Positions 6,778-64,000 of a stretch of 64,000 nt of DNA are shown in pieces. This DNA is from Entrophospora sp. SA101. Its lineage: Eukaryota > Glomeromycota > Glomeromycetes > Entrophosporales > Entrophosporaceae. The DNA lies in NCBI GenBank assembly GCA_958430865.1, contig CAUDNR010003779.1, forward strand, positions 108,358 through 172,357, in the 5' to 3' direction. The notes below the pieces were generated by a model. It did no database searches. It was not told where the DNA came from and saw only the letters and a list, made by a program, of their open reading frames with translations. The position numbers and the translations under genes are program-made. The stretch's first letter is position 1. Each line of letters opens with the position of its first letter.

Positions 6778-7392
6778 TTAAAAATCAGAACACATATAAA
6801 TTGGCGTGAAGTTGATGTTAAACAACTCCCCTATAACATAGTTATCGTCACATATGTTTATGAAATTAGAAAAAAAATCAATATTTTGACATTGCTGTTC
6901 AAAGACGGTGGGATCGTGTCGGGTGTCAGTGGTAGGTGTGGCGGTGGCTGTTGTAGGCTTTGGCTTTTTTGAGGTCCGTTTGTGGACTTTATGGCCCATC
7001 GAACGGACTTTTAGGATGGACTTGTCTCGTTTTGGTTGGTATTTGTAGGTTGGAAACTTTTCATTGAAAAGCTGTTGAGCAATCTTATATAATTGGATGA
7101 AAGGTTCCTTTTCATTGGCCGAGAACTGCCTCCACAGCATTGATTGGGATTTTGACAGCACTGTCTGGTTGTTGTGGCCAGGGATTGATTTTGAAGTTGC
7201 AAATCTGTTGAAAACAGATTTGAACTGAAAAAAGCAGTTGGATACACGCCCAACCGTGTTATTTTTTTTAGAGGGTAATATAGGATGATGGCCTTTGGCC
7301 ACACAAATGAACTCGTTCAAATTATTTTTGAAATAGAGCACCATTTGCTCTATAAGTTCCTCATCGTTCGCCTCTTTAATACAAACTGACAT
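6778..7392 (-). CDS. HMG-box protein, MATA_HMG-like (204 aa)
   Basis: Single uninterrupted reading frame starting at an ATG at 7392. Residues about 48-122 form an HMG box: RVSNCFFQFKSVFNRF (helix 1 region), SKSQSMLWRQFSANEK (with the conserved W of helix 2), then FIQLYKIAQQLFNEKFPTYK and the basic tail YKYQPKRDK. HMG boxes of this type bind the DNA minor groove and act as transcription factors; related proteins sit at fungal mating-type loci. After the box there is a Lys/Thr-rich linker (KRTSKKPKPTTATATPTT) and a hydrophobic C-terminus. The canonical RPxNxF opening is changed to RVSNCF and helix 1 is longer than usual, so it is divergent. Divergently oriented relative to the two other intact HMG genes. 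Role in mating is not shown by the sequence. Confidence 0.8.
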   Translation of the reverse strand: MSVCIKEANDEELIEQMVLYFKNNLNEFICVAKGHHPILPSKKNNTVGRVSNCFFQFKSVFNRFATSKSIPGHNNQTVLSKSQSMLWRQFSANEKEPFIQLYKIAQQLFNEKFPTYKYQPKRDKSILKVRSMGHKVHKRTSKKPKPTTATATPTTDTRHDPTVFEQQCQNIDFFSNFINICDDNYVIGELFNINFTPIYMCSDF

Positions 7393-16306: not shown

Positions 16307-17494
16307 ATGAATAATCGATGTGATAAGCTTAGTTATAAATCAACAGCAATACCAAATGTAATAAACATGAATAGTGGGGTCAAAATGCATTATTCGCCAC
16401 CTTCACTCGTTTCTTCGTCTTCCTCGGAAAGTAGCAGCGATTATGAAGAAGAGGAAGAGGAAGAGGAAGAAGGGATTCTTTTAAGAGAAATTCAAAACGT
16501 AAAAAATCAATTAAACCTATTCCCGGTTCCATCCACTCCCGAAAGTTATGTCCAAAAGAATCCTTTCAACGCAACTGACGGACGCGTTAAACGTCCCTCA
16601 AATTGCTTTATAATTTTCCGAAAGATAGCCCATGACCAAAAAAAGTTCAACAAACAATTGGAAGTTTATAATGAAAGGGAATTTAGTAAAATATTAGGAA
16701 TAATTTGGAAAAGCTTAGAAAAACGGCAAGTACAAATGTACAAGACGTTTGCTGATTCCGTAGCAAATCTTCACACCACAAGAAATCCTAATTACAAATA
16801 TCGCCCGAAAAGAAATCGTGCCGCTTGGAAGCAGTATGTCCCTTATTCGTTGATCGAACACAAAAACTATAAAACAACAGCAAACGATAATCTGGAAAAA
16901 GCACCATCGACAGCAGTTTCTTCGGAGGCATTGGCAACAGCACCAATTAATCCCAATAATTGTATTAATGATAATTATGATCATAATTATAATAACAATA
17001 TTAATAATTTTAGCAGCAAAAGCACCGGCGGAAGCAGCTATGACAACAACAATATCAGTAATCTTGACGCTAATAATAATTTGATCATAAAAAATAATCC
17101 TTTGTTTAGTGGTATTCCTCACTTTGGACAATCCGGCGCCAATGACAACCACAACTATGACAATTTCGTCAGCAATGATTACTTAGATTTAAACAACTAC
17201 GATAGTAATAACGACGCCAATAACATCGACAATAACAGCGATAATAACGTTGGTCCCTATGTGATCAATTATGGTTATACACATTATTACGAAACGCCTT
17301 ATACTTTACGGTCTAACGAAAGCAACAGTAATGTTGGTAATAAAAGTACTCTTTTCAATGAAAACAACAATAATAACATCGAAGATAATTTTATTAATAC
17401 TACCGCCAGTAATAATTTAGATTATAACCTTAGTAATATTATTAATTGGGATTGTAATAATAATCGTTGCTTTGAAAATATTTTCTTTTCATAG
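16307..17494 (+). CDS. HMG-box protein with acidic stretch and Asn-rich tail (395 aa)
   Basis: ATG at 16307, uninterrupted to TAG. The N-terminus has a Ser run (residues 36-44) and an acidic run of glutamates (47-55). The HMG box spans about 93-170: GRVKRPSNCFIIFRK (canonical RPSNxFxxxR), REFSKILGIIWKSLEKRQVQ (helix 2 with W), then YKTFADSVANLHTTRNPN and the tail YKYRPKR. This is a near-canonical MATA-type box, known to bind DNA and regulate transcription. Residues from about 205 onward are rich in Asn, Asp, Tyr and Ser, probably disordered and partly from AAT/AAC triplet expansion. Same strand as the HMG gene at 19603, 2.1 kb downstream; both have the box near the N-terminus and an Asn-rich tail, so they are likely paralogues by tandem duplication followed by strong divergence. 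Confidence 0.85.
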   Translation: MNNRCDKLSYKSTAIPNVINMNSGVKMHYSPPSLVSSSSSESSSDYEEEEEEEEEGILLREIQNVKNQLNLFPVPSTPESYVQKNPFNATDGRVKRPSNCFIIFRKIAHDQKKFNKQLEVYNEREFSKILGIIWKSLEKRQVQMYKTFADSVANLHTTRNPNYKYRPKRNRAAWKQYVPYSLIEHKNYKTTANDNLEKAPSTAVSSEALATAPINPNNCINDNYDHNYNNNINNFSSKSTGGSSYDNNNISNLDANNNLIIKNNPLFSGIPHFGQSGANDNHNYDNFVSNDYLDLNNYDSNNDANNIDNNSDNNVGPYVINYGYTHYYETPYTLRSNESNSNVGNKSTLFNENNNNNIEDNFINTTASNNLDYNLSNIINWDCNNNRCFENIFFS

Positions 17495-26800: not shown

Positions 26801-28057
26801 CAGGGCTGGAAATAGGGTCTGAAAAAAAAACGGAAATTCCTCCTGAATGCTAAGAATTTTCCGGAAGAAAAATTTAAAAAAAGGAAAATTTTTTTCAAAT
26901 TTAAGAATTTTCTTTATTTTATACTTCTGTTTTTACTTTGAAGAAGATTACTAAGAGCATCACTAAAATCATAACAAAATAAATCAGTACTTTCTAAACC
27001 AACCATCATTAATAAGTGCAATATGTCATTTTCCATTGCATTACATAAATCTGTTTTGTTTTCTAAAGCCTCTTTCACAATCTACACTAGAAAATGGAAT
27101 TGAGTGCACTATTTCTATAAGTTTTAAAATATAAATAAGACTTGGAAGTTTGGAAATTGGAATATTTTCTTTTGCCATCCAGTAAATCATTTTCATTATA
27201 TTAATTATACGTTTGTTACCATTATTAGTGGTTTTTTTTTGGAAGAATCTTGCATGATTATTCTCTTTTCTAGAAAAAAAGAGCCATTATGTTGGTTTGA
27301 AAGTGCATGAGTTGCTAGAGCAGTAGATTTTGAAATACTCTTTGATCCCAAATAATAACATTATAATATTAGTAATTTAAGAATTGCAAAATACAAAATT
27401 AATTATATTTATTTGTCACCTTTTCCTGTAAATAGATTTTTTTCCCGTGTGCTTTATAAATTATGTAAAACATTCTCTTCATTGCTGCATCATATTTTAC
27501 CATTTATATATGTTTAGCCATTCATGCTTAAAACTTCTTCCTGATTTTTAAAATGCATTTTTTTATTTGACATTTTAATATGGTTTTCACTTGATTCACT
27601 TTTTTTATTTGATTTTTTTTGAAGTATCATCATCATCTGAGCCTTGAATTGTCAAAACATCTGAACCTTCTATATCTGATTCATCAATATTTGTTTCAAA
27701 ATTTCAGTAGTCAAATTATCTAATCCTTCTTATTCTATACTATTTATTTATAATTTATTTTTTTGAATAAGGGGAAACAAATAAATGCACATAAATTCAT
27801 ATTTAAGTGTATATATTTAATAATTTAAAATTCAAAAGATACAAATTATGGTACTTTTCTAAAATATTGAAGTAATGACACACATATATGTACAGTATAC
27901 ATTATTTAGTATAAAATTTTTTTATGTGAATGGAAATCTGTATATACAAAAAAAATAAAAATAAAAATAAAAATAAAAAGGAAAAATATCCGGCAACTCT
28001 GAAGTTAAAAATTTTTAAAGGAAAATCCGGATTTTTAAAGTACTATTTCCAGCCCTG
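26801..28057 (-). mobile_element. Degenerate hAT-like element with 15-bp inverted ends
   Basis: Starts CAGGGCTGGAAATAG and ends with its exact reverse complement CTATTTCCAGCCCTG, a hAT-style terminus. On the minus strand at about 27120-26935 it encodes the C-terminal hAT dimerisation motif: IPFSSVDCERGFRKQN, then after a frameshift ENDILHLLMMVGLESTDLF and DALSNLLQS. An acidic segment and further stop-filled sequence make up the rest. Flanks (CTGTACAT and ATTGCCTA) do not match, so no target duplication is left. Compared with the second copy at 56819 it lacks 17 bp near 26890 (AGGTGCTAAAATTTTTT between short direct repeats). It abuts the micro-exon array and appears to truncate that gene. Confidence 0.75.
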
Positions 28058-30318
28058 ATTGCCTATTTATTATTTAAAATAAAATGAAAATCAATCAACA
28101 GTTAATATGTTTACAAAAACAATGGTAATGGTAGTAAGTGATAAAAATACTTACCTTTTATTTATTATTTAAAATAAACGAAAATCAAGAATAATATTGG
28201 CTGTAATAATAATGAAGAAAATACTTACTTTCTATTTATTACTAAAAATAAAACGAAAATCAACAGTTAATATGTTTTCAAAAACAATGAATGATATTGA
28301 GTGTAATAATAATGAAATGATAAAAATACTCACACACTATTTATTATTTAAATTAAAACGAAAATCAAGTTTAATATTTTCAAAAAAACAATGATATTGA
28401 ACTGTAACAATAATGAAATGATGAGAATACTTACTTGCTATTTATTATTTAAAATAAATGAAAGCCAACGGTTAATATTTTTTCAAAAACAATGATATTG
28501 ACTGTAATAATAGTGAAATAATGAGAATACTTACTTCCTATATTTATAATTAAAATAAAACGAAAATCAACAGTTAATATTTTCATAAAAACAATGATAT
28601 TGACTGTAACGATAGTGAAATGATGAGAATACCTACACACTATTTATTATTTAAGATAAAACGAAAATCAACAATTAATATGTTTCCAAAAAACCAATGA
28701 TATTGACTGTAAAAATAGTGAAATGATGAAAATACTTACATCCTATATTTATTATTTAAGATAAAACGTGAATCAACAGTTAATATGTTTTCAAAAAAAC
28801 AATGATATTGACTGTAATAATAGTGAAATGATGAAAATACTTACATCCTATAAAAAATAAAACGAAAATCAACAGTTAATATTTTCAAAAAAAAAGATAT
28901 TGACTGTAACAATACTTACATACTGTTTATTATTTAAAATAAATGAAAGCTAACAGTTAATATGTTTTCAAAAAAACAATGATATTGACCGTAACAATAG
29001 TTAAATGATGAGAATACTTACATCCTATTTATTATTTAAAATAAATGAAAACCAACAGTTAATATGTTTTCAAAATCAACGATATTGACTGTAACAATAG
29101 TGAAATGATGAGAATACTTACCCACTACACATTATTTTAAATAAAATGAAAGCTAACGGTTAATATTTTTTCAAAAACAATGATATTGACTGTAACAATA
29201 GTGAAATGATGAGAATACTTACATCCTATATTTATTATTTAAAATAAATGAAAGCTAACAGTTAATATGTTTTCAAAAACAATGATATTGGCTGTAACAA
29301 TAGTAAATGATGAGAATACTTACATACTATTTATTATTTAAAATAAAACGAAAATTAACAGTTAATATTTTTTCAAATTGACTGTAATAATAGTGAAATG
29401 ATGAAAATACTTACATCCTATATTTATTATTTAAAATAAAACGAAAATCAACAGTTAATATGTTTTCAAAAACAATGATATTGGCTGTAACAATAATGAA
29501 GTGATGAGAATACTTACATACTATTTATTATTTAAAATAAATGAAAGCTAACAGTTAATATGTTTTCAAAAAAACAATGATATTGGCTGTAACAATAGTA
29601 AATGATGAGAATACTTACAGGCTATTTATTATTTAAAATAAATGAAAGATAACAGTTAATATTTTTTTCAAAAACAATGATATTGACTGTAACAATAGTG
29701 AAGTGATCAGAATGCTTACCCGCTACACGTTATTTAAAATAAAACGAAAATCAACAGTTAATATTTTTTCAAAAACAATGATATTGACTGTAATAATAGT
29801 GAAATGATGAGAATACTTACCCGCTACACGTTATTTAAAATAAAATGAAAACCAACAGTTAATATGTTTTCAAAAACAATGATATTGACTGTAATAATAG
29901 TGAAATGATGAGAATACTTACAAACTACCCATTATTTTAAATAAAATGAAAACCAACAGTTAATATGTTTTCAAAAATAGTGATATTGACAGTAATAATA
30001 GTACAAAAATACTTACCACTCTATTTATTATTTAGAATAAAATGAAAACCAATAATTAATATGTTTTCAAAAACAACGATATTGACTGTAATAATAGTAC
30101 AAAATACTTACGGAACTATTTATTATTTAAAATCAAATGAAACCCAATAGTTAGTATTTTTCAAAAACAATGATATCGAATATAATGATATTTATTGTAA
30201 TAGTAAATATAATAATAAATGAAGTACTTCGCTTCGCCAAATTATTGTTATCAATTGGACTTGCTAAATCCACAACAGCAAAGATAATCAAAAAGAGAAG
30301 AGAAATATTGAATTTCAT
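28015..30318 (-). CDS. Putative secreted-peptide gene built from 3-nt micro-exons (copy 1)
   Basis: Exon 1 is 30318-30228: MKFNISLLFLIIFAVV is a signal peptide, followed by DLASPIDNNNLAKR with a terminal Lys-Arg suited to Kex2-type cleavage; donor GTACTT at 30227. Then about 22 repeats follow. Micro-exons, all minus strand: 30115-30112 TTCC, 30020-30017 AGTG, then 3-nt exons ending at 29922, 29821, 29720, 29619, 29518, 29415, 29324, 29223, 29122, 29022, 28920, 28845, 28740, 28637, 28535, 28435, 28334, 28229. Spliced, they read IPV then FRRPYDYDWDYDDCEQCK. A last acceptor at 28063 opens a 15-codon exon (28062-28015) that runs into the hAT terminus and stops. Introns are 72-112 nt except the last (166). 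Splice sites are nearly invariant while the three bases between them vary. No homologue recognised; a secreted effector or signalling peptide is an inference. Splicing is unproven. Confidence 0.6.
28058..30227 (-). repeat. Tandem array of intron-like repeats, unit about 101 bp
   Basis: About 22 imperfect units, mostly spaced 98-105 bp. Consensus parts on the minus strand, in order: GTAAGTATTCTCATCATTTC at the start, CTATTATTACAG, TCAATATCATTG, TTTTTGAAAACATATTAACTG (a branch-site-like TTAAC), then TTTTATTTTAAATAATAAATAG at the end, each given here as part-motifs. Between the final TAG of one unit and the next GTAAGT there are three variable bases. Variation in donors is limited to splice-compatible forms (GTAAGC, GTAGGT, GTGAGT). 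One unit at 28151-28160 has lost its acceptor (TAG to TAA). Confidence 0.9.
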
Positions 30319-31755
30319 TTTGATTTGCTCAGGTAATTTTTTTTGTCGATTTTTCACTTTTTCATGATTTTCAAATTGTATGGGATTACTGTAAAAGTAT
30401 TTATAAAAAAAAATGAAAGCGAATTTTGTTTTTTTCAAATTGTATGCAGTTGTTATTGTAATTAGGATTTAAAGCTGATTTGTTGGTCGAAATACCCTAA
30501 TTCCGAATCAAATCTTTTTATTTCTATTTATATCTTTATTATTTCTTATTTTATTATAATAAAAATTTTCAATATTGCCGGCAATTCTTTTGAAAGTTTT
30601 TTGTTGAGATTTTTATTTTTTTGGTTTTTTTTATATACCTATACCAGACTAGGACAAATACATTTTATAGACTGTTAATTCTCGACGACCTTTTCTTCTT
30701 CGTTTGGAAATTACTATTACTGAATAATTTTTTTTCATACGGGCTAAGAAGCCGTAATAAACGTCATTTAATACTTAATATTAATATTAAATTTAATTTG
30801 TATTATTATTTAATGTCTGCCGATATCGAATGTTGCGAACGTATTTATATACGTATAATAATAATATATTCAAAAAAAAAAAAATTTTTGCAAAGATATT
30901 GTTCTTTTGGGCCAATTGACATAAATATATATATAGAATTCTTTTTCTTGTGGAATATTATTTGGCTTTTGACTTGTCTTTAATATTAAATTTTTTTGTG
31001 TCAATTCGACAAAATTAACAGACAATAAAATAATAGATGATAGTAGACCATTTCAATTGCATTTATAGCAATTGGCACAAAGAACTTCGATTAATTTGAA
31101 GGAGGTGAATTAATTTTTGTCACTTATATACTTATATTATTAGCTTATTTAAGCTTATGCTTTGGTTATTATTATCAGCTTCCTTTAAGCTTATAAGCTA
31201 ATATAAGCTTCCAAAGATTTTTTTAATGGACAAACGTTTAATTTATATAAAAAAGCTAGTTTATTCATTTATAAAATATAGGTCTTTTCCTTTAACAAGA
31301 TAATATAAACAAAAATTACATTTATAATCTATATTATTATTATAGTTTCTAGCATTATGACTTAAGGAAAATGCCAGCTACTACTATTTATTATTATCGC
31401 TATATTCAAGGAGGACCAAGGAAAGATAGATTGATAAAGAAAAAAAATTTTAATTGGATCGGATTATTCGAATTTTTATTATTATTTTTATTATTATCGT
31501 TCATTTTATTCGAATTAAAAATTTATTCGAATAGAAGTCCTACTACTACTACACCAAGTATATAGAAAAAAAATTTCATTCTAATAATAATACAATAAAA
31601 TTTATGCTAAAATTATAAATATTCGTTAAATGTAAACGTAATATATCAGATATAAGATGCTGACGAAACCAGCAAATTGGATTCGTCTTATAGGCTAAAC
31701 GTTTAGTCTATATGAAAAAAACCAATTTACTAGTTTTTCATTATTATTATTACTA
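30319..31755. other. Intergenic stretch
   Basis: Probable promoter side of the micro-exon gene. A 64-codon frame with an ATG at 31371 (plus) encodes a basic N-terminus and one membrane segment (GLFEFLLLFLLLSFILFEL) followed by a Thr-rich end; it could be a small membrane protein but evidence is weak. At about 31131-31213 there are inverted AAGCTTA/TTAGCTTA motifs able to form a hairpin. The longer plus-strand open stretch at 30621-30983 starts only at TTG and looks fortuitous. Confidence 0.35.
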
Positions 31756-32256
31756 TTATTGTTCAATGTCGATTTCGATTTCTTTTATTTCATCGTTCCA
31801 TGATAATTTTCTGTTTCTATTTCTGGTGGTGTCGTCGTCATCTTCTTGCAGAAGGTCCAATATCACTATAGTAGTATCTAATGCTAACACATTCCACAAT
31901 AATTTACTTAAATAGCTATTCAAATCAAACCAAAAGGCGATTTCTATATAAAGTAGAATACGTATAAAATATACTAGAGTAAAGAAAAGACCGAAGAAAA
32001 TCCAAACGTAATTGTTCCGTTTATGTTGTTCATGGTTATCATCTTGATCATTGTATTTATATCTTTGCAAAAATTCTTTCCATTTATTTTGTCCTTTCAT
32101 TTTAAGGGCATACTTAATTGCTCCTAACGAACTGATTAGTGTTACTATTGAAAGAACGATGATCCATGATAACATCTCAGTCGTGATTTTATCATAATTT
32201 TTGCCTAGAAAAGCCAAAACTATGCATGTTTTGATAGGTGCAGATATGTAGACCAT
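31756..32256 (-). CDS. Small multi-pass membrane protein (about 166 aa, or 3' exon)
   Basis: Minus-strand frame from ATG at 32256. It encodes roughly four hydrophobic segments: APIKTCIVLAFLG, MLSWIIVLSIVTLISSLGAI, YVWIFFGLFFTLVYFIRILL and LLWNVLALDTTIVILDLL, with basic loops (KMKGQNKWKEFLQRYKYN) and an acidic C-terminus (EIKEIEIDIEQ). An acceptor-like CGGATAG lies just upstream at about 32270, so this may be the last exon of the gene starting at 33052, with the pogo-like MITE sitting in the intron. Family unknown. Confidence 0.5.
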   Translation of the reverse strand: MVYISAPIKTCIVLAFLGKNYDKITTEMLSWIIVLSIVTLISSLGAIKYALKMKGQNKWKEFLQRYKYNDQDDNHEQHKRNNYVWIFFGLFFTLVYFIRILLYIEIAFWFDLNSYLSKLLWNVLALDTTIVILDLLQEDDDDTTRNRNRKLSWNDEIKEIEIDIEQ

Positions 32257-32338
32257 TAAATTCAAATCTATCCGTATATTGTTATTACTAAATGAAAATA
32301 TACATTTAATGAATCGATTGCTTGCTCATTTATTTATA

Positions 32339-32478
32339 CAATCAAACCTTGCCACAGCGGATCTTATTGCAGTGAATTCTAATCAAACTTGCGTTATACA
32401 TATATGACGAGATTAGTAATTATAATAATAATATTTTTCTAATGTGTCCGGTGTATTCGTTGTGACAAGGTTTGACTG
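32339..32478. mobile_element. pogo/Tigger-like MITE, 140 bp, TA target duplication
   Basis: Left end CAATCAAACCTTGCCACA and right end, reverse-complemented, CAGTCAAACCTTGTCACA face each other, with similarity continuing inward (GCGGAT versus ACGAAT). TA dinucleotides flank both sides (32337-32338, 32479-32480). CAGTCAAACC-type ends with TA duplication are characteristic of pogo/Tigger elements. Non-coding. Confidence 0.75.
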
Positions 32479-32486
32479 TATTAATA

Positions 32487-33052
32487 TTAATAATATAAAT
32501 AAAATTGAAAATCAAAATTAAATTTATACTTATTGTTATTATCTTTTTTTGATTTTTTTTCGAGATTAGTAGCTTCAATTTCCTTATTTTCTTCTAATTG
32601 ATTAATTTCAATTTCCAACTCATTTTCTTTAATTTCCTTATTTTCTTCCAAAGACCACATTTCTACATTATCTGCTTTTATTCCGAGTATAGTTCTAATT
32701 TCTTTAATCAACACAGTCACTGCGAGCACAAAATTCATAACACTATAGCATATAAATACTATTGTCCAAGTAGTGTTCTTCTCGATCTTGCTTTCAAGGG
32801 TCAAAAAGAGTAAATTACTATGAATGTAATATATAAGTATACAAATAATCTTACAAGAAACCTCGCAATTAATGCGAAGTATCTAGCTTTTGATTCTTTG
32901 CAGAAAGAAAGATAAATAAATAACGGCAAAAATAATGTTAACAAGGTATCAAGTAAGTTGTCTCCCTGAAAGCCTTGATCATCAATAGGTGGTGCTGCTT
33001 CAGTGGTGACAATAAACAGATTGATTGTGGAAAATATCAAGAGTTTCTTCAT
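32487..33052 (-). CDS. Signal-peptide membrane protein, probable two-exon gene
   Basis: Exon 1 starts at ATG 33052: MKKLLIFSTINLFIVTTEA is a likely signal peptide, then PPIDDQGFQGDN and a membrane segment LLTLFLPLFIYLSF, ending with YFALIARFL before a GTAAGA donor (intron from 32854). Exon 2 (probably 32786-32487, acceptor AAGCAAG, which keeps the frame) has WTIVFICYSVMNFVLAVTVL as a second membrane segment and a charged, Glu/Lys-rich tail with two EENKEI repeats. The CATAG acceptor at 32818 would break the frame with this donor. About 165 aa if spliced so. A further donor in the tail (AATAAGTATAAA) may join it to 32256-31756. Unknown function. Confidence 0.5.
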
Positions 33053-34000
33053 GATTCAATGATTTTAAGGAAAATTCGACCCTACCACCGTTTCATTTAT
33101 AAATGGTTTCCATCATTATCATTATCATTATCACTATCATTGACTCATTCCACTTCCTTAAATGGCTTTATAATAAAATCCAATCGCAATATTTATGTTA
33201 CACGGATAATCAGTTATCAAAAATGTTGAATCAAACCCTTTTTTCAGAACTTTATGAGACTAGGAATTGGAAAAAGATGATTAAATTATGTTTACCTCAT
33301 AAAATTCTTTATCATAATAACAAACAAATTAAGAATTATCTATTCCAAGACCACATAAAAAACAATTATTTGTTTAAGTGAAGGAATAAGAACAGGTAAC
33401 AAAATTTTAACCCATGCAATTGTTGATTAACCAATCAACATCGTGAATTTGATAACGTAAAAATAAATGTTGGTTTGATAACAATCACTTCACCAACAGT
33501 TGTTTCGTTAACAAATGGTTCGAATTTAAGAAGTTGGGAGCAATCATGCGATAAACCTTTGAAATAGTCTAATAAATTAAATCGTACTACTCGAAAATGT
33601 TTTTAAAGGGATGGTTTTCGGCTTGATTGAAGAATAACTCTCTTCATAACTCTTCTCTTGACCATATTTTTCGATATAATCAAAATAACCTTAGTATAAT
33701 GAATGTCGGTAAAATGATTGTAAATACAACCAATATTTAAGATATACGATTGAGACAAAACATGAACAATGTACAAATTTATTTAATAAAAACAAAATTT
33801 ACAACCTAAAAAATGTTTTTTTTGCATGTTCTAATAAAATTTCCATTGTTGCTATCCATCAATTGCTGATTCAACGTTACCCGGATCATTATCAACTGTA
33901 TTTTCGATATTTTCAATAAACTCATTTTAGTTTAATCTTTTCGTCCTACTTTCTTTAGTGCGTTGACTTTTTTTGATTTCGACTTGAAGATATCAAACAT
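33053..34000. other. Intergenic stretch
   Basis: Plus-strand open stretches begin only at TTG and overlap a CATTAT simple repeat at about 33110-33140, so they are not called. The rest is AT-rich with no recognised motif. Up to 33977 this is duplicated at 63076-64000. Confidence 0.4.
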
Positions 34001-47105: not shown

Positions 47106-49075
47106 ATGGAACCAGGATCTTACGTGTATTTATTAGTCGTAGGCTCCATAATTGCTTTTGCCGATGGTTATGGTATAGGAGCCAACGATGTAGCAAATTC
47201 ATTTTCCACATCCGTCGGTTCTAGATCTTTAACGTTAAAGCAAGCATGTGGTATTGCAGTTTTCACTGAATTTTTAGGAGCATTTCTTCTTGGTATGTTG
47301 AGAACTTTTGCTCGTCACAAATTATTCGTTTAAACGTATTGATATGGAATTCGAAATTTACATTAAAAATCATTTTTTATATAGGTGCAAACACAGCCGA
47401 AACTATTCGTGGCAAAATTATAAATGTAAACTTATTTGTTGATAAACCTGAAGTTCTTATGGTAAAAATCAAAAACAAAAATATACAAATCGTTTTATCA
47501 TTTTAAAATTACGTTTTTATATTTATTTTATATATTTATATATTTTCATAATAGCTTGCAATGGTATGCGCTTTAATAGGATCATCCAGTTGGATTATTT
47601 TTGCTTCAAGTAAAGGTTGGCCAGTTTCAACCACTCATTCAATTGGTTAGTATTAATCATAATCATAATCATCATTGTTGTTATTTATTATTTAATTATA
47701 TCAAATGTTAATCACGTAACATTTAAATATTATATATTAATAGTTGGTGCTATTATTGGTGTTGGTGTTAGCGCTTTTGGTACTCAAGCAATAGATTGGG
47801 GTTATAATGGTGTTGGAAAGATCGTTGCCTCATGGTTTATATCACCTGTTGTGGCTGGTGTCGTAGCCAGTTTGATTTTCATTTCTACAAAATATGCCGT
47901 ACTTAGGAGCACGAATTCATTCAATCGTGGTATCATTGCTGTACCAATCTATTTTGGAATAACTATTGCCGTAAATGTATCATTCTTTATCTATAAGGGT
48001 GCTCCTGCTTTTAAACTTGACAAAACTCCACCAGGTAAATATTAATATTACAATATAATTATTAAATATATATATACACATTTTAGATTTTTAATTAATT
48101 ATTAATAATATGTATCATCATTATATATATATAGTTATTATTGCACCTGTAACAATTGGTGTCACATTAATCGTTTCAGCATTTTCATACTTTTTCTATG
48201 CCGAATGGCTCAGACGTAAGATTATTGGTAAAGAGACCGGACTTCGTTGGTATCATATTCCAATAGTACCATGCATTAAAAAAGGTGGATATATTGATCA
48301 AACTTCCACTGAAAGTGGAGCCACATCAGCCGAAAAAACTAATAATGAAGAAATCTCAGAAAATCCTGATGGCAAAGATGGTGGAGATAAAATAGAAGAA
48401 GATAAGGAGGTTAACTGGGTACAAAAATCATGGGTAAAAATATTGGCAGTAGCTGGCCATGGTCTCAACAAAGAAATTGCAGATTATAATCATGATAAAA
48501 ATGAAGCTATGCACGCTGTTGCCGTCAAATATGATGATGACACTGAAACTTTATATTCATTTTTACAAATCTTAACTGCGTCATTTGCCTCATTTTCTCA
48601 TGGTTCAAATGACGTAGCAAACGCAGTTGGTCCATTAGCCACAATCTATCTCATCTACACCTCAGGAGCAGTCGATCCAACTGGAGTAACTCCAGTGCCA
48701 ATTTGGATTTTAGCATTAGGTGGTATAGCTATAGACATTGGTCTCATTACTTATGGTTATCATGTGATGAGGTCACTTGGTAACGAAATTACATATCATT
48801 CCCCGTCTCGTGGTTTCTCCATGGAATTGGGTACCTCTCTCACCGTATTAACAGCATCGAAACTTGGTTTACCGGTTTCAACAACGCATTGTATTACTGG
48901 TGCAACAGCAGGTGTCGGTCTTTGTAATGGTAATGTCAAAGCTTTGAACTGGAAATTATTAGCTTGGTGCTTTTTTTCATGGGTACTCACTCTTCCAATA
49001 GCAGGATGTACCGCAGGACTTATTTTTGCTTTTGTAGCAAACGCACCAAAAATAGGTTTAGCTGCTACAACTTAA
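47106..49075 (+). CDS. PHO-4 family phosphate transporter (Pho89/PiT type), 5 exons, 528 aa
   Basis: Exons 47106-47292, 47385-47461, 47555-47645, 47744-48034 and 48135-49075 join in frame (1587 nt) with GT-AG introns of 90-100 nt. The product has the two family repeats: GIGANDVANSFSTSVG at residues 23-38, then GANTAETIRGK and KGWPVSTTHSI, and near the C-terminus SHGSNDVANAVGPLATI (about 370-386) and GLPVSTTHCITGATAGVG. A hydrophilic, Glu/Asp/Lys-rich cytoplasmic loop (about 268-350) separates them, as in yeast Pho89 and animal PiT proteins, which import phosphate with sodium. Length and topology (about 10-12 membrane segments) are normal and all signature residues are present, so it should be functional. 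Ion coupling is inferred from the family. A decayed PHO84-type gene lies just upstream on the other strand. Confidence 0.95.
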
Positions 49076-56818: not shown

Positions 56819-58080
56819 CAGGGCTATGAAAAAAAACGGAAATTCCTCCTGAATGCTAAGAATTTTCCGGAAGAAAAATTTTAAAAAAGGAAAATTTTTT
56901 AGGTGCTAAAATTTTTTTCAAATTTAAGAATTTTCTTTATTTTATACTTCTGTTTTTACTTTGAAGAAGATTACTAAGAGCATCACTAAAATCATAACAA
57001 AATAAATCAGTACTTTCTAAACCAACCATCATTAATAAGTGCAATATGTCATTTTCCATTGCATTACATAAATCTGTTTTGTTTTCTAAAGCCTCTTTCA
57101 CAATCTACACTAGAAAATGGAATTGAGTGCACTATTTCTATAAGTTTTAAAATATAAATAAGACTTGGAAGTTTGGAAATTGGAATATTTTCTTTTGCCA
57201 TCCAGTAAATCATTTTCATTATATTAATTATACGTTTGTTACCATTATTAGTGGTTTTTTTTTGGAAGAATCTTGCATGATTATTCTCTTTTCTAGAAAA
57301 AAAGAGCCATTATGTTGGTTTGAAAGTGCATGAGTTGCTAGAGCAGTAGATTTTGAAATACTCTTTGATCCCAAATAATAACATTATAATATTAGTAATT
57401 TAAGAATTGCAAAATACAAAATTAATTATATTTATTTGTCACCTTTTCCTGTAAATAGATTTTTTTCCCGTGTGCTTTATAAATTATGTAAAACATTCTC
57501 TTCATTGCTGCATCATATTTTACCATTTATATATGTTTAGCCATTCATGCTTAAAACTTCTTCCTGATTTTTAAAATGCATTTTTTTATTTGACATTTTA
57601 ATATGGTTTTCACTTGATTCACTTTTTTTATTTGATTTTTTTTGAAGTATCATCATCATCTGAGCCTTGAATTGTCAAAACATCTGAACCTTCTATATCT
57701 GATTCATCAATATTTGTTTCAAAATTTCAGTAGTCAAATTATCTAATCCTTCTTATTCTATACTATTTATTTATAATTTATTTTTTTGAATAAGGGGAAA
57801 CAAATAAATGCACATAAATTCATATTTAAGTGTATATATTTAATAATTTAAAATTCAAAAGATACAAATTATGGTACTTTTCTAAAATATTGAAGTAATG
57901 ACACACATATATGTACAGTATACATTATTTAGTATAAAATTTTTTTATGTGAATGGAAATCTGTATATACAAAAAAAATAAAAATAAAAATAAAAATAAA
58001 AAGGAAAAATATCCGGCAACTCTGAAGTTAAAAATTTTTAAAGGAAAATCCGGATTTTTAAAGTACTATTTCCAGCCCTG
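56819..58080 (-). mobile_element. Degenerate hAT-like element, copy 2
   Basis: Same as 26801-28057, with the IPFSSVDCERGFRKQN dimerisation motif on the minus strand near 57140-57080. The right inverted end is intact; the left end keeps only CAGGGCT followed by ATGAAAA, so the 15-bp terminal repeat is broken. The left flank (CTCCAGAC) is unrelated to that of copy 1. Confidence 0.75.
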
Positions 58081-60341
58081 ATTGCCTATTTATTATTTAA
58101 AATAAAATGAAAATCAATCAACAGTTAATATGTTTACAAAAACAATGGTAATGGTAGTAAGTGATAAAAATACTTACCTTTTATTTATTATTTAAAATAA
58201 ACGAAAATCAAGAATAATATTGGCTGTAATAATAATGAAGAAAATACTTACTTTCTATTTATTACTAAAAATAAAACGAAAATCAACAGTTAATATGTTT
58301 TCAAAAACAATGAATGATATTGAGTGTAATAATAATGAAATGATAAAAATACTCACACACTATTTATTATTTAAATTAAAACGAAAATCAAGTTTAATAT
58401 TTTCAAAAAAACAATGATATTGAACTGTAACAATAATGAAATGATGAGAATACTTACTTGCTATTTATTATTTAAAATAAATGAAAGCCAACGGTTAATA
58501 TTTTTTCAAAAACAATGATATTGACTGTAATAATAGTGAAATAATGAGAATACTTACTTCCTATATTTATAATTAAAATAAAACGAAAATCAACAGTTAA
58601 TATTTTCATAAAAACAATGATATTGACTGTAACGATAGTGAAATGATGAGAATACCTACACACTATTTATTATTTAAGATAAAACGAAAATCAACAATTA
58701 ATATGTTTCCAAAAAACCAATGATATTGACTGTAAAAATAGTGAAATGATGAAAATACTTACATCCTATATTTATTATTTAAGATAAAACGTGAATCAAC
58801 AGTTAATATGTTTTCAAAAAAACAATGATATTGACTGTAATAATAGTGAAATGATGAAAATACTTACATCCTATAAAAAATAAAACGAAAATCAACAGTT
58901 AATATTTTCAAAAAAAAAGATATTGACTGTAACAATACTTACATACTGTTTATTATTTAAAATAAATGAAAGCTAACAGTTAATATGTTTTCAAAAAAAC
59001 AATGATATTGACCGTAACAATAGTTAAATGATGAGAATACTTACATCCTATTTATTATTTAAAATAAATGAAAACCAACAGTTAATATGTTTTCAAAATC
59101 AACGATATTGACTGTAACAATAGTGAAATGATGAGAATACTTACCCACTACACATTATTTTAAATAAAATGAAAGCTAACGGTTAATATTTTTTCAAAAA
59201 CAATGATATTGACTGTAACAATAGTGAAATGATGAGAATACTTACATCCTATATTTATTATTTAAAATAAATGAAAGCTAACAGTTAATATGTTTTCAAA
59301 AACAATGATATTGGCTGTAACAATAGTAAATGATGAGAATACTTACATACTATTTATTATTTAAAATAAAACGAAAATTAACAGTTAATATTTTTTCAAA
59401 TTGACTGTAATAATAGTGAAATGATGAAAATACTTACATCCTATATTTATTATTTAAAATAAAACGAAAATCAACAGTTAATATGTTTTCAAAAACAATG
59501 ATATTGGCTGTAACAATAATGAAGTGATGAGAATACTTACATACTATTTATTATTTAAAATAAATGAAAGCTAACAGTTAATATGTTTTCAAAAAAACAA
59601 TGATATTGGCTGTAACAATAGTAAATGATGAGAATACTTACAGGCTATTTATTATTTAAAATAAATGAAAGATAACAGTTAATATTTTTTTCAAAAACAA
59701 TGATATTGACTGTAACAATAGTGAAGTGATCAGAATGCTTACCCGCTACACGTTATTTAAAATAAAACGAAAATCAACAGTTAATATTTTTTCAAAAACA
59801 ATGATATTGACTGTAATAATAGTGAAATGATGAGAATACTTACCCGCTACACGTTATTTAAAATAAAATGAAAACCAACAGTTAATATGTTTTCAAAAAC
59901 AATGATATTGACTGTAATAATAGTGAAATGATGAGAATACTTACAAACTACCCATTATTTTAAATAAAATGAAAACCAACAGTTAATATGTTTTCAAAAA
60001 TAGTGATATTGACAGTAATAATAGTACAAAAATACTTACCACTCTATTTATTATTTAGAATAAAATGAAAACCAATAATTAATATGTTTTCAAAAACAAC
60101 GATATTGACTGTAATAATAGTACAAAATACTTACGGAACTATTTATTATTTAAAATCAAATGAAACCCAATAGTTAGTATTTTTCAAAAACAATGATATC
60201 GAATATAATGATATTTATTGTAATAGTAAATATAATAATAAATGAAGTACTTCGCTTCGCCAAATTATTGTTATCAATTGGACTTGCTAAATCCACAACA
60301 GCAAAGATAATCAAAAAGAGAAGAGAAATATTGAATTTCAT
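58038..60341 (-). CDS. Putative secreted-peptide gene with 3-nt micro-exons (copy 2)
   Basis: Identical in every compared base to the gene at 28015-30318, shifted by 30,023. Exon 1 is 60341-60251 (signal peptide and AKR), micro-exons follow at the matching positions, and the terminal exon is 58085-58038. Predicted product is the same. If real, the duplication gives two identical loci, so reads cannot be assigned uniquely. Confidence 0.6.
58081..60250 (-). repeat. Tandem array of intron-like repeats, copy 2
   Basis: Same array of about 22 units of about 101 bp as 28058-30227. The lack of any difference between two arrays so rich in internal repeats points to a very recent duplication or to an assembly artefact. 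Confidence 0.9.
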
Positions 60342-61778
60342 TTTGATTTGCTCAGGTAATTTTTTTTGTCGATTTTTCACTTTTTCATGATTTTCAAATT
60401 GTATGGGATTACTGTAAAAGTATTTATAAAAAAAAATGAAAGCGAATTTTGTTTTTTTCAAATTGTATGCAGTTGTTATTGTAATTAGGATTTAAAGCTG
60501 ATTTGTTGGTCGAAATACCCTAATTCCGAATCAAATCTTTTTATTTCTATTTATATCTTTATTATTTCTTATTTTATTATAATAAAAATTTTCAATATTG
60601 CCGGCAATTCTTTTGAAAGTTTTTTGTTGAGATTTTTATTTTTTTGGTTTTTTTTATATACCTATACCAGACTAGGACAAATACATTTTATAGACTGTTA
60701 ATTCTCGACGACCTTTTCTTCTTCGTTTGGAAATTACTATTACTGAATAATTTTTTTTCATACGGGCTAAGAAGCCGTAATAAACGTCATTTAATACTTA
60801 ATATTAATATTAAATTTAATTTGTATTATTATTTAATGTCTGCCGATATCGAATGTTGCGAACGTATTTATATACGTATAATAATAATATATTCAAAAAA
60901 AAAAAAATTTTTGCAAAGATATTGTTCTTTTGGGCCAATTGACATAAATATATATATAGAATTCTTTTTCTTGTGGAATATTATTTGGCTTTTGACTTGT
61001 CTTTAATATTAAATTTTTTTGTGTCAATTCGACAAAATTAACAGACAATAAAATAATAGATGATAGTAGACCATTTCAATTGCATTTATAGCAATTGGCA
61101 CAAAGAACTTCGATTAATTTGAAGGAGGTGAATTAATTTTTGTCACTTATATACTTATATTATTAGCTTATTTAAGCTTATGCTTTGGTTATTATTATCA
61201 GCTTCCTTTAAGCTTATAAGCTAATATAAGCTTCCAAAGATTTTTTTAATGGACAAACGTTTAATTTATATAAAAAAGCTAGTTTATTCATTTATAAAAT
61301 ATAGGTCTTTTCCTTTAACAAGATAATATAAACAAAAATTACATTTATAATCTATATTATTATTATAGTTTCTAGCATTATGACTTAAGGAAAATGCCAG
61401 CTACTACTATTTATTATTATCGCTATATTCAAGGAGGACCAAGGAAAGATAGATTGATAAAGAAAAAAAATTTTAATTGGATCGGATTATTCGAATTTTT
61501 ATTATTATTTTTATTATTATCGTTCATTTTATTCGAATTAAAAATTTATTCGAATAGAAGTCCTACTACTACTACACCAAGTATATAGAAAAAAAATTTC
61601 ATTCTAATAATAATACAATAAAATTTATGCTAAAATTATAAATATTCGTTAAATGTAAACGTAATATATCAGATATAAGATGCTGACGAAACCAGCAAAT
61701 TGGATTCGTCTTATAGGCTAAACGTTTAGTCTATATGAAAAAAACCAATTTACTAGTTTTTCATTATTATTATTACTA

Positions 61779-62279
61779 TTATTGTTCAATGTCGATTTCG
61801 ATTTCTTTTATTTCATCGTTCCATGATAATTTTCTGTTTCTATTTCTGGTGGTGTCGTCGTCATCTTCTTGCAGAAGGTCCAATATCACTATAGTAGTAT
61901 CTAATGCTAACACATTCCACAATAATTTACTTAAATAGCTATTCAAATCAAACCAAAAGGCGATTTCTATATAAAGTAGAATACGTATAAAATATACTAG
62001 AGTAAAGAAAAGACCGAAGAAAATCCAAACGTAATTGTTCCGTTTATGTTGTTCATGGTTATCATCTTGATCATTGTATTTATATCTTTGCAAAAATTCT
62101 TTCCATTTATTTTGTCCTTTCATTTTAAGGGCATACTTAATTGCTCCTAACGAACTGATTAGTGTTACTATTGAAAGAACGATGATCCATGATAACATCT
62201 CAGTCGTGATTTTATCATAATTTTTGCCTAGAAAAGCCAAAACTATGCATGTTTTGATAGGTGCAGATATGTAGACCAT
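61779..62279 (-). CDS. Small multi-pass membrane protein, copy 2
   Basis: Identical to 31756-32256: four hydrophobic segments, basic loop, acidic tail. ATG at 62279. Same doubt on whether it is a separate gene or the last exon of the gene starting at 63075. Confidence 0.5.
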   Translation of the reverse strand: MVYISAPIKTCIVLAFLGKNYDKITTEMLSWIIVLSIVTLISSLGAIKYALKMKGQNKWKEFLQRYKYNDQDDNHEQHKRNNYVWIFFGLFFTLVYFIRILLYIEIAFWFDLNSYLSKLLWNVLALDTTIVILDLLQEDDDDTTRNRNRKLSWNDEIKEIEIDIEQ

Positions 62280-62361
62280 TAAATTCAAATCTATCCGTAT
62301 ATTGTTATTACTAAATGAAAATATACATTTAATGAATCGATTGCTTGCTCATTTATTTATA

Positions 62362-62501
62362 CAATCAAACCTTGCCACAGCGGATCTTATTGCAGTGAAT
62401 TCTAATCAAACTTGCGTTATACATATATGACGAGATTAGTAATTATAATAATAATATTTTTCTAATGTGTCCGGTGTATTCGTTGTGACAAGGTTTGACT
62501 G
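62362..62501. mobile_element. pogo/Tigger-like MITE, copy 2
   Basis: Copy of 32339-32478 carried along in the segmental duplication; TA flanks are kept. Confidence 0.75.
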
Positions 62502-62509
62502 TATTAATA

Positions 62510-63075
62510 TTAATAATATAAATAAAATTGAAAATCAAAATTAAATTTATACTTATTGTTATTATCTTTTTTTGATTTTTTTTCGAGATTAGTAGCTTCA
62601 ATTTCCTTATTTTCTTCTAATTGATTAATTTCAATTTCCAACTCATTTTCTTTAATTTCCTTATTTTCTTCCAAAGACCACATTTCTACATTATCTGCTT
62701 TTATTCCGAGTATAGTTCTAATTTCTTTAATCAACACAGTCACTGCGAGCACAAAATTCATAACACTATAGCATATAAATACTATTGTCCAAGTAGTGTT
62801 CTTCTCGATCTTGCTTTCAAGGGTCAAAAAGAGTAAATTACTATGAATGTAATATATAAGTATACAAATAATCTTACAAGAAACCTCGCAATTAATGCGA
62901 AGTATCTAGCTTTTGATTCTTTGCAGAAAGAAAGATAAATAAATAACGGCAAAAATAATGTTAACAAGGTATCAAGTAAGTTGTCTCCCTGAAAGCCTTG
63001 ATCATCAATAGGTGGTGCTGCTTCAGTGGTGACAATAAACAGATTGATTGTGGAAAATATCAAGAGTTTCTTCAT
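62510..63075 (-). CDS. Signal-peptide membrane protein, copy 2
   Basis: Identical to 32487-33052. Probable exons are 63075-62878 and 62809-62510. Signal peptide MKKLLIFSTINLFIV, two membrane segments, Glu/Lys-rich tail. Confidence 0.5.
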
Positions 63076-64000
63076 GATTCAATGATTTTAAGGAAAATTC
63101 GACCCTACCACCGTTTCATTTATAAATGGTTTCCATCATTATCATTATCATTATCACTATCATTGACTCATTCCACTTCCTTAAATGGCTTTATAATAAA
63201 ATCCAATCGCAATATTTATGTTACACGGATAATCAGTTATCAAAAATGTTGAATCAAACCCTTTTTTCAGAACTTTATGAGACTAGGAATTGGAAAAAGA
63301 TGATTAAATTATGTTTACCTCATAAAATTCTTTATCATAATAACAAACAAATTAAGAATTATCTATTCCAAGACCACATAAAAAACAATTATTTGTTTAA
63401 GTGAAGGAATAAGAACAGGTAACAAAATTTTAACCCATGCAATTGTTGATTAACCAATCAACATCGTGAATTTGATAACGTAAAAATAAATGTTGGTTTG
63501 ATAACAATCACTTCACCAACAGTTGTTTCGTTAACAAATGGTTCGAATTTAAGAAGTTGGGAGCAATCATGCGATAAACCTTTGAAATAGTCTAATAAAT
63601 TAAATCGTACTACTCGAAAATGTTTTTAAAGGGATGGTTTTCGGCTTGATTGAAGAATAACTCTCTTCATAACTCTTCTCTTGACCATATTTTTCGATAT
63701 AATCAAAATAACCTTAGTATAATGAATGTCGGTAAAATGATTGTAAATACAACCAATATTTAAGATATACGATTGAGACAAAACATGAACAATGTACAAA
63801 TTTATTTAATAAAAACAAAATTTACAACCTAAAAAATGTTTTTTTTGCATGTTCTAATAAAATTTCCATTGTTGCTATCCATCAATTGCTGATTCAACGT
63901 TACCCGGATCATTATCAACTGTATTTTCGATATTTTCAATAAACTCATTTTAGTTTAATCTTTTCGTCCTACTTTCTTTAGTGCGTTGACTTTTTTTGAT
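63076..64000. other. Intergenic stretch, duplicate of 33053-33977
   Basis: Same sequence as copy 1; no gene supported. The window ends inside the duplication. Confidence 0.5.

Follow-up and report, generated by a model that had tools for sequence, protein, structure and literature searches.

Anatomy of the window gene

The 64,000-nucleotide window analysed here, from contig CAUDNR010003779.1 of the root-symbiotic arbuscular mycorrhizal fungus Entrophospora sp. SA101, carries on its minus strand (28015-30318) a gene composed of a 91-nt exon followed by a tandem array of intron-like units of about 100 bp (GTAAGTATT...TATTAAC...AAATAATAAATAG). Two 4-nt and eighteen 3-nt exons lie in this array, each between a YAG acceptor and a GTRRGY donor. 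Judging from this array and its relatives, we consider it highly probable that the gene belongs to a large family of secreted-peptide genes in Entrophospora, the mature region of which is built almost wholly of single-codon exons. A first-pass annotation of the same DNA had described one such gene with about twenty units. The twenty units are all there, together with a 21st in which AAAAG replaces TAG, and the single-codon design is supported by the reading frame of the family, the 3-nt spacing, a second intron family and a database protein (P0122); the design belongs, however, to a large family and not to one gene.

Exon 1 (30228-30318, with the start codon ATG at 30318) encodes MKFNISLLFLIIFAVVDLASPIDNNNLAKR plus the first base of the next codon. 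It has a signal-peptide-like hydrophobic start and, as the first-pass annotation had noted, ends in a Kex2-like Lys-Arg with a donor in phase 1 (GCG AAG CGA A, donor GTACTT). Intron 1 (30116-30227; GTACTT...TACTAAC...TAG), as read from the sequence, resembles the array introns. The two 4-nt exons, TTCC (30112-30115) and AGTG (30017-30020), combine with the last A of exon 1 into ATT CCA GTG, that is, IPV. The eighteen 3-nt exons that follow on the minus strand are TTT (F, 29922-29924), CGG (R, 29821-29823), CGG (R, 29720-29722, donor GTAAGC), CCT (P, 29619-29621), TAT (Y, 29518-29520), GAT (D, 29415-29417), TAT (Y, 29324-29326), GAT (D, 29223-29225), TGG (W, 29122-29124), GAT (D, 29022-29024), TAT (Y, 28920-28922, acceptor CAG), GAT (D, 28845-28847), GAT (D, 28740-28742), TGT (C, 28637-28639, donor GTAGGT), GAA (E, 28535-28537), CAA (Q, 28435-28437), TGT (C, 28334-28336, donor GTGAGT) and AAA (K, 28229-28231). 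In the frame set by exon 1 the micro-exons read IPVFRRPYDYDWDYDDCEQCK, giving IPV and then FRRPYDYDWDYDDCEQCK without a stop, in agreement with the earlier parse of 1+4+4 bases followed by one codon per exon; the predicted spliced sequence across exon 1 and the first codons is ...AAGCGA-ATTCCAGTG-TTTCGGCGG....

Apart from the three variant donors and the single CAG just given, the splice sites are uniform, with GTAAGT at 17 of 20 donors and TAG at 19 of 20 acceptors. The branch-like motif reported earlier as TTAAC is present as well, but it varies, being TTAAT in units 1 and 15, and TATTAAC is missing from the intron before the 21st unit (donor 28154). That unit belongs to the degenerate terminal units (28063-28228, minus strand), where an AAAAG/GTAAGT junction at 28154 has no TAG acceptor and would represent a 0-nt exon or be skipped; the last acceptor TAG lies at 28063-28065. 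The same junction, AAATAAAAG/GTAAGT, was also found in the paralogs L029, L038, L046 and L053.

The predicted last exon (28015-28062, minus strand) has only five nucleotides, GCAAT, of its own before it runs into an insert, in which it reads AIRAGNSTLKIRIFL up to a stop. The previously proposed span of 28015 to 30318 thus contains all the elements named for it, but its 28015 end is inside this insert. The insert (26801-28057, minus strand, 1257 bp) is hAT-like; it has inverted termini (CAGGGCTGGAAATA) and what remains of a degenerate transposase (a weak match of a piece of it to PF05699, 14.3 bits against a cut-off of 21.4), and it sits where paralogs have their 3' end; no 8-bp target duplication was seen by eye. 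The gene lies in a duplicated block of about 7.1 kb (26814-33977 and 56820-64000; a 7093-bp identical run, the copies 30 kb apart), which reflects either a recent duplication or a duplication in the assembly. The second gene copy (58038-60341, minus strand, ATG at 60341) lies within the near-identical repeat of this block. One boundary of the block is close to one end of the insert.

The conservation of the splice signals amid varying codons, noted in the first-pass annotation, is borne out by the 18 window units. Their mean pairwise difference was 0.61 (61%) in the spacer columns and 0.109 (10.9%) in the intron columns, while the most variable 3-column window of the intron reached 0.50. The spacer columns were the most variable of the unit alignment and were flanked by highly conserved ones. 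Introns 6 and 9 have zero substitutions between them, yet the exons preceding them are CCT and TAT. Simple decay of a tandem repeat was rejected, as exon columns vary while splice sites stay. On the window's minus strand the pattern [TC]AG-N3-GT[AG][AG]GT had 35 matches, of which the two array copies account for 34 (17 each); the plus strand had none.

A family of loci, its spacing and its reading frame

We searched the assembly (101.3 Mb, 2123 contigs) for relatives. The DNA of exon 1 matched at least 40 places (40 of the 65 first-look candidates were scored), and an exon-1 pattern gave 43 matches with no match in its control. The union of both searches comprises at least 52 loci on 36 contigs with a related hydrophobic exon 1, a lower bound that includes near-identical copies, some of which may be haplotigs or false duplications; an artefact confined to one contig was thereby rejected. 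A first-chosen genome pattern had given 66 matches, below its 227 controls. The pattern GTAAGT-N70..100-TAG-NNN-GTAAGT matched 780 times against 36 in the reversed control. According to the spacer counts for AATAG-Nk-GTAAGTATT, made at k=1, 2, 3, 4 and 6 (k=5 was left out), a spacer of three nucleotides is by far the most frequent, with 411 matches (4 in the reversed-pattern control), compared with 16 (10) for k=1, 1 (12) for k=2, 56 (8) for k=4 and 4 (8) for k=6. Nearly all four-nucleotide sites (51 of 56) lie within 450 nt of an exon-1 match, and 15 of the 16 one-nucleotide sites lie beside one, by reading of the listed places. Three-nucleotide spacing is therefore the rule, and most exceptions occur at the start of an array, where they complete the codon phase. 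The introns of the family are similar to one another, with a median length of 98 nt and a range of 72-108 nt (n=224, spacings above 125 nt left out), and the donor was GTAAGTAT for 219 of 257 micro-exons across the models. Arrays of the first intron family with three-nucleotide spacers also occur at C139:43987-46034 and on C167, two contigs that had no exon-1 match in either search; another signal exon may serve there.

The reading frame was tested on 33 stretches, namely the window copy and L029-L060. Models with micro-exons were obtained for 25 of them, and 19 were kept after six copies or close variants had been set aside. Six stretches that did not match the exon-1 motif used gave no model (L030, L032, L033, L039, L056 and L057). 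Also left out were L036, at a contig end, and both copies in L031, whose exon 1 contains stops. Models built by a strict branch-point rule had missed many units and were replaced. Of the 293 micro-exons that these models contain, 257 were 3 nt long, 24 were 4 nt, nine 1 nt, two 9 nt and one 7 nt. Stops by frame, with the exon-1 frame first, numbered 2/303, 15/291 and 54/288 codons. As the gene-model parser favours a 3-nt spacer where several acceptors fit, it is useful to set beside it a parser taking the nearest YAG, which placed 252 of 289 micro-exons at 3 nt and gave 3/301, 14/290 and 54/286 stops. Position-wise base composition predicts 10.6 stops among the 211 triplets in phase 0, and there were none; the chance of this would be 1.8e-5 for independent units, whereas the units here are related.

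The first two micro-exons measure 4+4, 4+1 or 1+1 nt in 14 of the 19 models, and all of these combinations restore phase 0. The other five models are L034, with a different start phase, L041 and L060, with a site off the motif, and L052 and L055. Most 3-nt exons (211 of 257) are in phase 0 and 42 are in phase 2, which is the phase of the C65 gene. Exon 1 of the C65 subfamily ends AAGAAAC/GTGAGT, and its subsequent 3-nt exons are therefore in phase 2. In the exon-1 frame they read KKR-DCDPDPHSIDPCPTTPPPPNP with no stop; taken as whole codons, the triplets include one TGA. The third frame, however, likewise lacks stops. Exon 1 ends in KR or RR in the models, with the C65 site completed by the first micro-exon, although the model builder required this ending in all but C65. 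The predicted products include Cys-rich (L038, SLTCDLLGSCYCYPGC...), Trp/Pro-rich (L053, IPAWPWWLPKDPCDGENKK) and Lys/Pro-rich (L048) peptides, and cysteine is the most frequent residue (31 of 211). In line with the single-codon model, TAA comes immediately after the last acceptor in L041, L043 and L048. Two paralogs at C1:190000-199900 (L031) have long arrays, 38 and 24 units being called, but in-frame stops occur early in their exon 1.

Near-identical copies differ by whole units. Over the 2280 bp compared, the window gene aligns with the C860 copy without a mismatch, the difference being one 101-bp unit, which gives C860 an extra CGG codon (R). Likewise, C1507:20.6k and C514 are free of mismatches across 2.5 kb and differ by 289 bp, equal to three units that add TGG, AAA and TGT (W, K and C). 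These comparisons ignore unaligned ends, and the pairs could be alleles, paralogs or, for the window and C860 alone, an effect of assembly. In its best matches elsewhere in its own gene, the 289-bp stretch does not exceed about 89% identity and is therefore not a fresh copy of its neighbours. Furthermore, the nearest unit in another gene carries the same codon in 30% of 192 cases, compared with 8.5% when codons were permuted within genes (200 permutations, maximum 14.4%; L051 left out). Given this sharing, units partly act as cassettes that each carry a codon, whether through descent or through shuffling. We infer from these sequence comparisons that single residues of the peptide are edited through recombination between similar introns.

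A second family of introns shows the same spacing. The array on C24 has different introns (GTAAGTATTATATTATAATTTAAC...AACCAG or ...CATAG), likewise separated by 3-nt spacers; it is the one array of this kind that was read, and its first exon was not found. Genome-wide, the pattern of this family occurred at 284 sites with a three-nucleotide spacer and at none with four, the controls being zero for both. Its introns (L033 900-3149 and the 284 genome sites) are mostly about 84-95 nt long and have two types of acceptor, AACCAG and CATAG. By their sequence, the two intron families are unrelated.

The predicted window product had two matches among 5.8 billion proteins. One, P0121 (ENA), is exon 1 running into intron 1, as expected from genomic DNA. 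The other, P0122 (JGI; 56 aa from a 1024-bp contig, E 3.5e-5), consists of a homologous exon 1 followed, with no intron, by a tail of 25 residues, RLPTVWCWDEQWAQWYDCRDPYVSE. It looks like a spliced relative. In an array-bearing genome such an open reading frame would arise only after splicing, and the protein thus supports, though it does not prove, the splicing of single-codon exons. When a 12-sequence alignment served as the query, P0121 and P0122 were again the only proteins found; both were part of the alignment, so that the E-values are not independent. No Pfam family scored above its cut-off for P0122.

Other genes in the window provide context. The full sequence of the Entrophospora sp. 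SA101 protein P0001, a phosphate transporter, mapped to 47106-49072 in four pieces, and the open reading frame of the last exon is 100% identical to P0001 over 98% of its length. Its four introns start with GTATGTTG, GTAAAAAT, GTTAGTAT and GTAAATAT and end in TAG (boundaries by eye). Compared with the few donors of this gene, those of the micro-exons (GTAAGTAT in 219 of 257) come nearer to perfect complementarity with U1, which pairs with the donor. HMG-box genes (PF00505) lie at 16307-17494 (plus strand) and 6778-7392 (minus strand), the second scoring below the curated cut-off; arbuscular mycorrhizal fungi have an expanded set of HMG boxes.

Proposed splicing, peptide maturation and alternative explanations

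Spacing, frame and P0122 together lead us to infer strongly that single-codon exons are spliced in vivo. Exon 1 would provide the signal peptide and the Lys-Arg (Kex2-type) cleavage site, and in most parsed members two tiny exons (4+4, 4+1 or 1+1 nt) would complete the codon phase, after which each intron of about 98 nt would precede one 3-nt codon. As 3-nt exons could hardly be bridged as exons, the introns would be defined by their own strong signals, namely the GTAAGTAT donor and a TATTAAC branch-like site about 36 nt from the TAG acceptor, and would be removed one after another. A growing composite exon would then gain one codon with each splicing step; the new codon would now end a longer exon, and the next donor could be used. 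The signal peptide points to secretion and the Lys-Arg to Kex2 cleavage; the precursor would be cut after Lys-Arg to release a short variable peptide, often Cys-, Trp/Tyr- or Lys/Pro-rich. Because each unit is a similar repeat of about 100 bp with one frame-neutral codon, unequal recombination could add, remove or move single residues without a frameshift. The products would most likely form a variable set of extracellular peptides at an interface with plant, self or microbe, and calling the window product itself an effector would be a guess.

Several observations weigh against this reading. The frame counts are not independent, as the paralogs are related, and both the window copy and L051, one unit apart, enter them. 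Two stops do occur in the exon-1 frame, one after an anomalous 7-nt call (L029) and one after an internal 1-nt call (L058). The window copy alone, with 0, 0 and 6 stops by frame, leaves two frames unseparated. The parsers skip units with sites off the pattern (spacings of 150-314 nt in some genes), so residues may be missed. The first exon of the two L031 copies on C1 contains in-frame stops, and in the C65 genes a TAA after the last acceptor, similar to that of L041, L043 and L048, would be out of frame. An internal TTACAG, which is conserved, might serve as an acceptor instead; the longer-exon model built on it was rejected, its implied intron being about 35 nt by eye. P0122, for its part, is a lone protein from a contig that may be RNA or DNA, and could derive from an intronless relative.

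It is quite possible, if short of probable, that the family is real and the window copy a pseudogene, with the hAT-like insert having taken the native last exon and 3' untranslated region so that no stable product is made. The insert starts five bases past the last acceptor, and the motif GGCTGTATTTGCTC, with which (or with a near variant of which) the shared 3' region of several paralogs begins, is absent from the window. The native end is thus missing and the copy, whose 3' end is the insert, may be impaired or dead. Its last complete unit has neither the branch-like motif nor a TAG acceptor. On the other hand, no damage is seen in the 20 micro-exons or their sites, and the open frame meets a stop within the insert. 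Other copies, identical or nearly so, also continue into this insert (58038-60341, C1480 and C860, the last with one extra unit), and the AAAAG junction is common to paralogs and is therefore not a decay peculiar to the window copy.

Somewhat less likely, and in no conflict with single-codon splicing, is that alternative splicing generates many peptide isoforms per gene through skipping of 3-nt exons, as discussed for schistosome micro-exon genes. Retention of a unit brings in an in-frame stop in 154 of the 180 introns examined, while the 3-nt exons are frame-neutral, so skipping would be tolerated and retention would not. The uniformly strong donors (219 of 257 being GTAAGTAT) favour constitutive inclusion instead.

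We think it improbable that the products are precursors of modified peptides of the dikaritin type, resembling ribosomally synthesized and post-translationally modified peptides (RiPPs), in place of effectors or free signals. The Kex2-type junction and the Tyr/Trp-rich cores YDYDWDYDD (window) and WCWDEQWAQWYDC (P0122) would suit such a product, and cores of this kind are linked to dikaritins, but several paralogs carry Cys-rich or Lys/Pro-rich cores. A search for UstYa (PF11807) gave no match in the genome and none in control genomes either, and is thus uninformative. Still less probable is that the array is a tandem satellite, its intron-like repeats lying within a single long intron, with recursive (ratchet) or skipped sites and non-coding spacers: the units are indeed similar tandem repeats and the terminal ones contain 0-nt AG/GTAAGT junctions, but the spacers are the most variable columns amid highly conserved ones, keep frame with exon 1 (0 of 211 in-frame stops), measure three nucleotides and not two or six, and differ by single codons between near-identical copies.

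With single-codon splicing as the preferred reading, we lean towards the wider view that a new "one exon, one codon" gene architecture arose at least twice from unrelated intron families in one fungal genome, and that recombination between introns, by adding, deleting and reshuffling residues in hundreds of units, provides a fast-evolving repertoire of peptides secreted in symbiosis, recognition or microbial competition. A fungus whose sexual reproduction is presumably rare might diversify its secreted peptides by moving codon-carrying introns, an architecture in which evolution could add, drop or swap single residues. If spliced as predicted, such genes set a lower limit for exon size, indicate that intronic signals alone can suffice for splicing, and offer a natural system in which to watch consecutive splicing, with about 20 to 46 introns in a few kilobases. 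Standard annotation would miss such genes, and similar families may therefore exist unseen elsewhere.

Comparison with known systems

The first-pass annotation had named schistosome micro-exon genes (MEGs) as the nearest system, with larger exons, and the published exon sizes agree with the latter. The 35 MEGs of S. mansoni are secreted, with a conserved signal peptide, tiny and mostly frame-neutral exons and a variable mature part (PMC10526429). Their exons measure 6-81 bp in the text (3-81 in the abstract), the vast majority 15 bp, and their introns 0.1-5 kb, the longest lying centrally (PMC10526429). The Entrophospora genes resemble them in having many very short exons, mostly multiples of three (257 of 293 being 3 nt). 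They differ in that nearly all exons are 3 nt long, with 1 and 4 nt at the array start, and in that the introns are alike, with a median of 98 nt.

Aphid bicycle genes encode variable putative plant-gall effectors and contain an average of about 17 exons, among which are many micro-exons that share a single phase (PMC9168663). Their internal exons are almost all in phase 2, unlike the 3-nt exons here, of which 211 of 257 are in phase 0, and the passages on these insect genes mention neither tandem intron copies nor single-codon exons (PMC9168663). Fungal KEX2-processed repeat proteins (KEPs), many of them in Rhizophagus irregularis, have a signal peptide and KEX2 processing (PMC6339444), as is predicted for the present family. 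They repeat a near-identical motif between KEX2 sites, whereas one site is conserved here; the predicted family peptides have no KR-bounded repeats, and the internally duplicated block of L038 lacks KR. The words intron and exon are absent from the KEP text (PMC6339444). SP7-like effectors of arbuscular mycorrhizal fungi are a Glomeromycotina-specific secreted family with repeats, but theirs are imperfect hydrophilic repeats after a conserved intron, whereas the window gene has about 20 introns and no such peptide repeat. Stwintrons undergo consecutive splicing reactions, and sequence-similar introns have been propagated within one genome (PMC12403724, PMC9024468). They are nested, one splice element being interrupted by an intron, whereas here every unit carries a donor and an acceptor of its own, and 3 nt separate one unit from the next.

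Among the matches listed in a search of the literature on fungal and Glomeromycotina microexons, 3-nt exons and tandem introns, with preprints and most subscription papers outside its scope, there were no genes whose mature region consists essentially of single-codon exons. A 3-bp exon is described in Drosophila hth (PMC7392893), and a spliced 1-nt exon with SRA support in Fusarium CYP621A (PMC12940212); both are single events in single genes, and the latter shows that fungal spliceosomes can handle exons of such sizes. MEGs, bicycle genes, KEPs, SP7-like effectors and stwintrons each share parts of the present system and each differ from it in a defining feature. Isolated 3-nt and even 1-nt exons are thus already known, and what appears new is a mature region made essentially of single-codon exons throughout.

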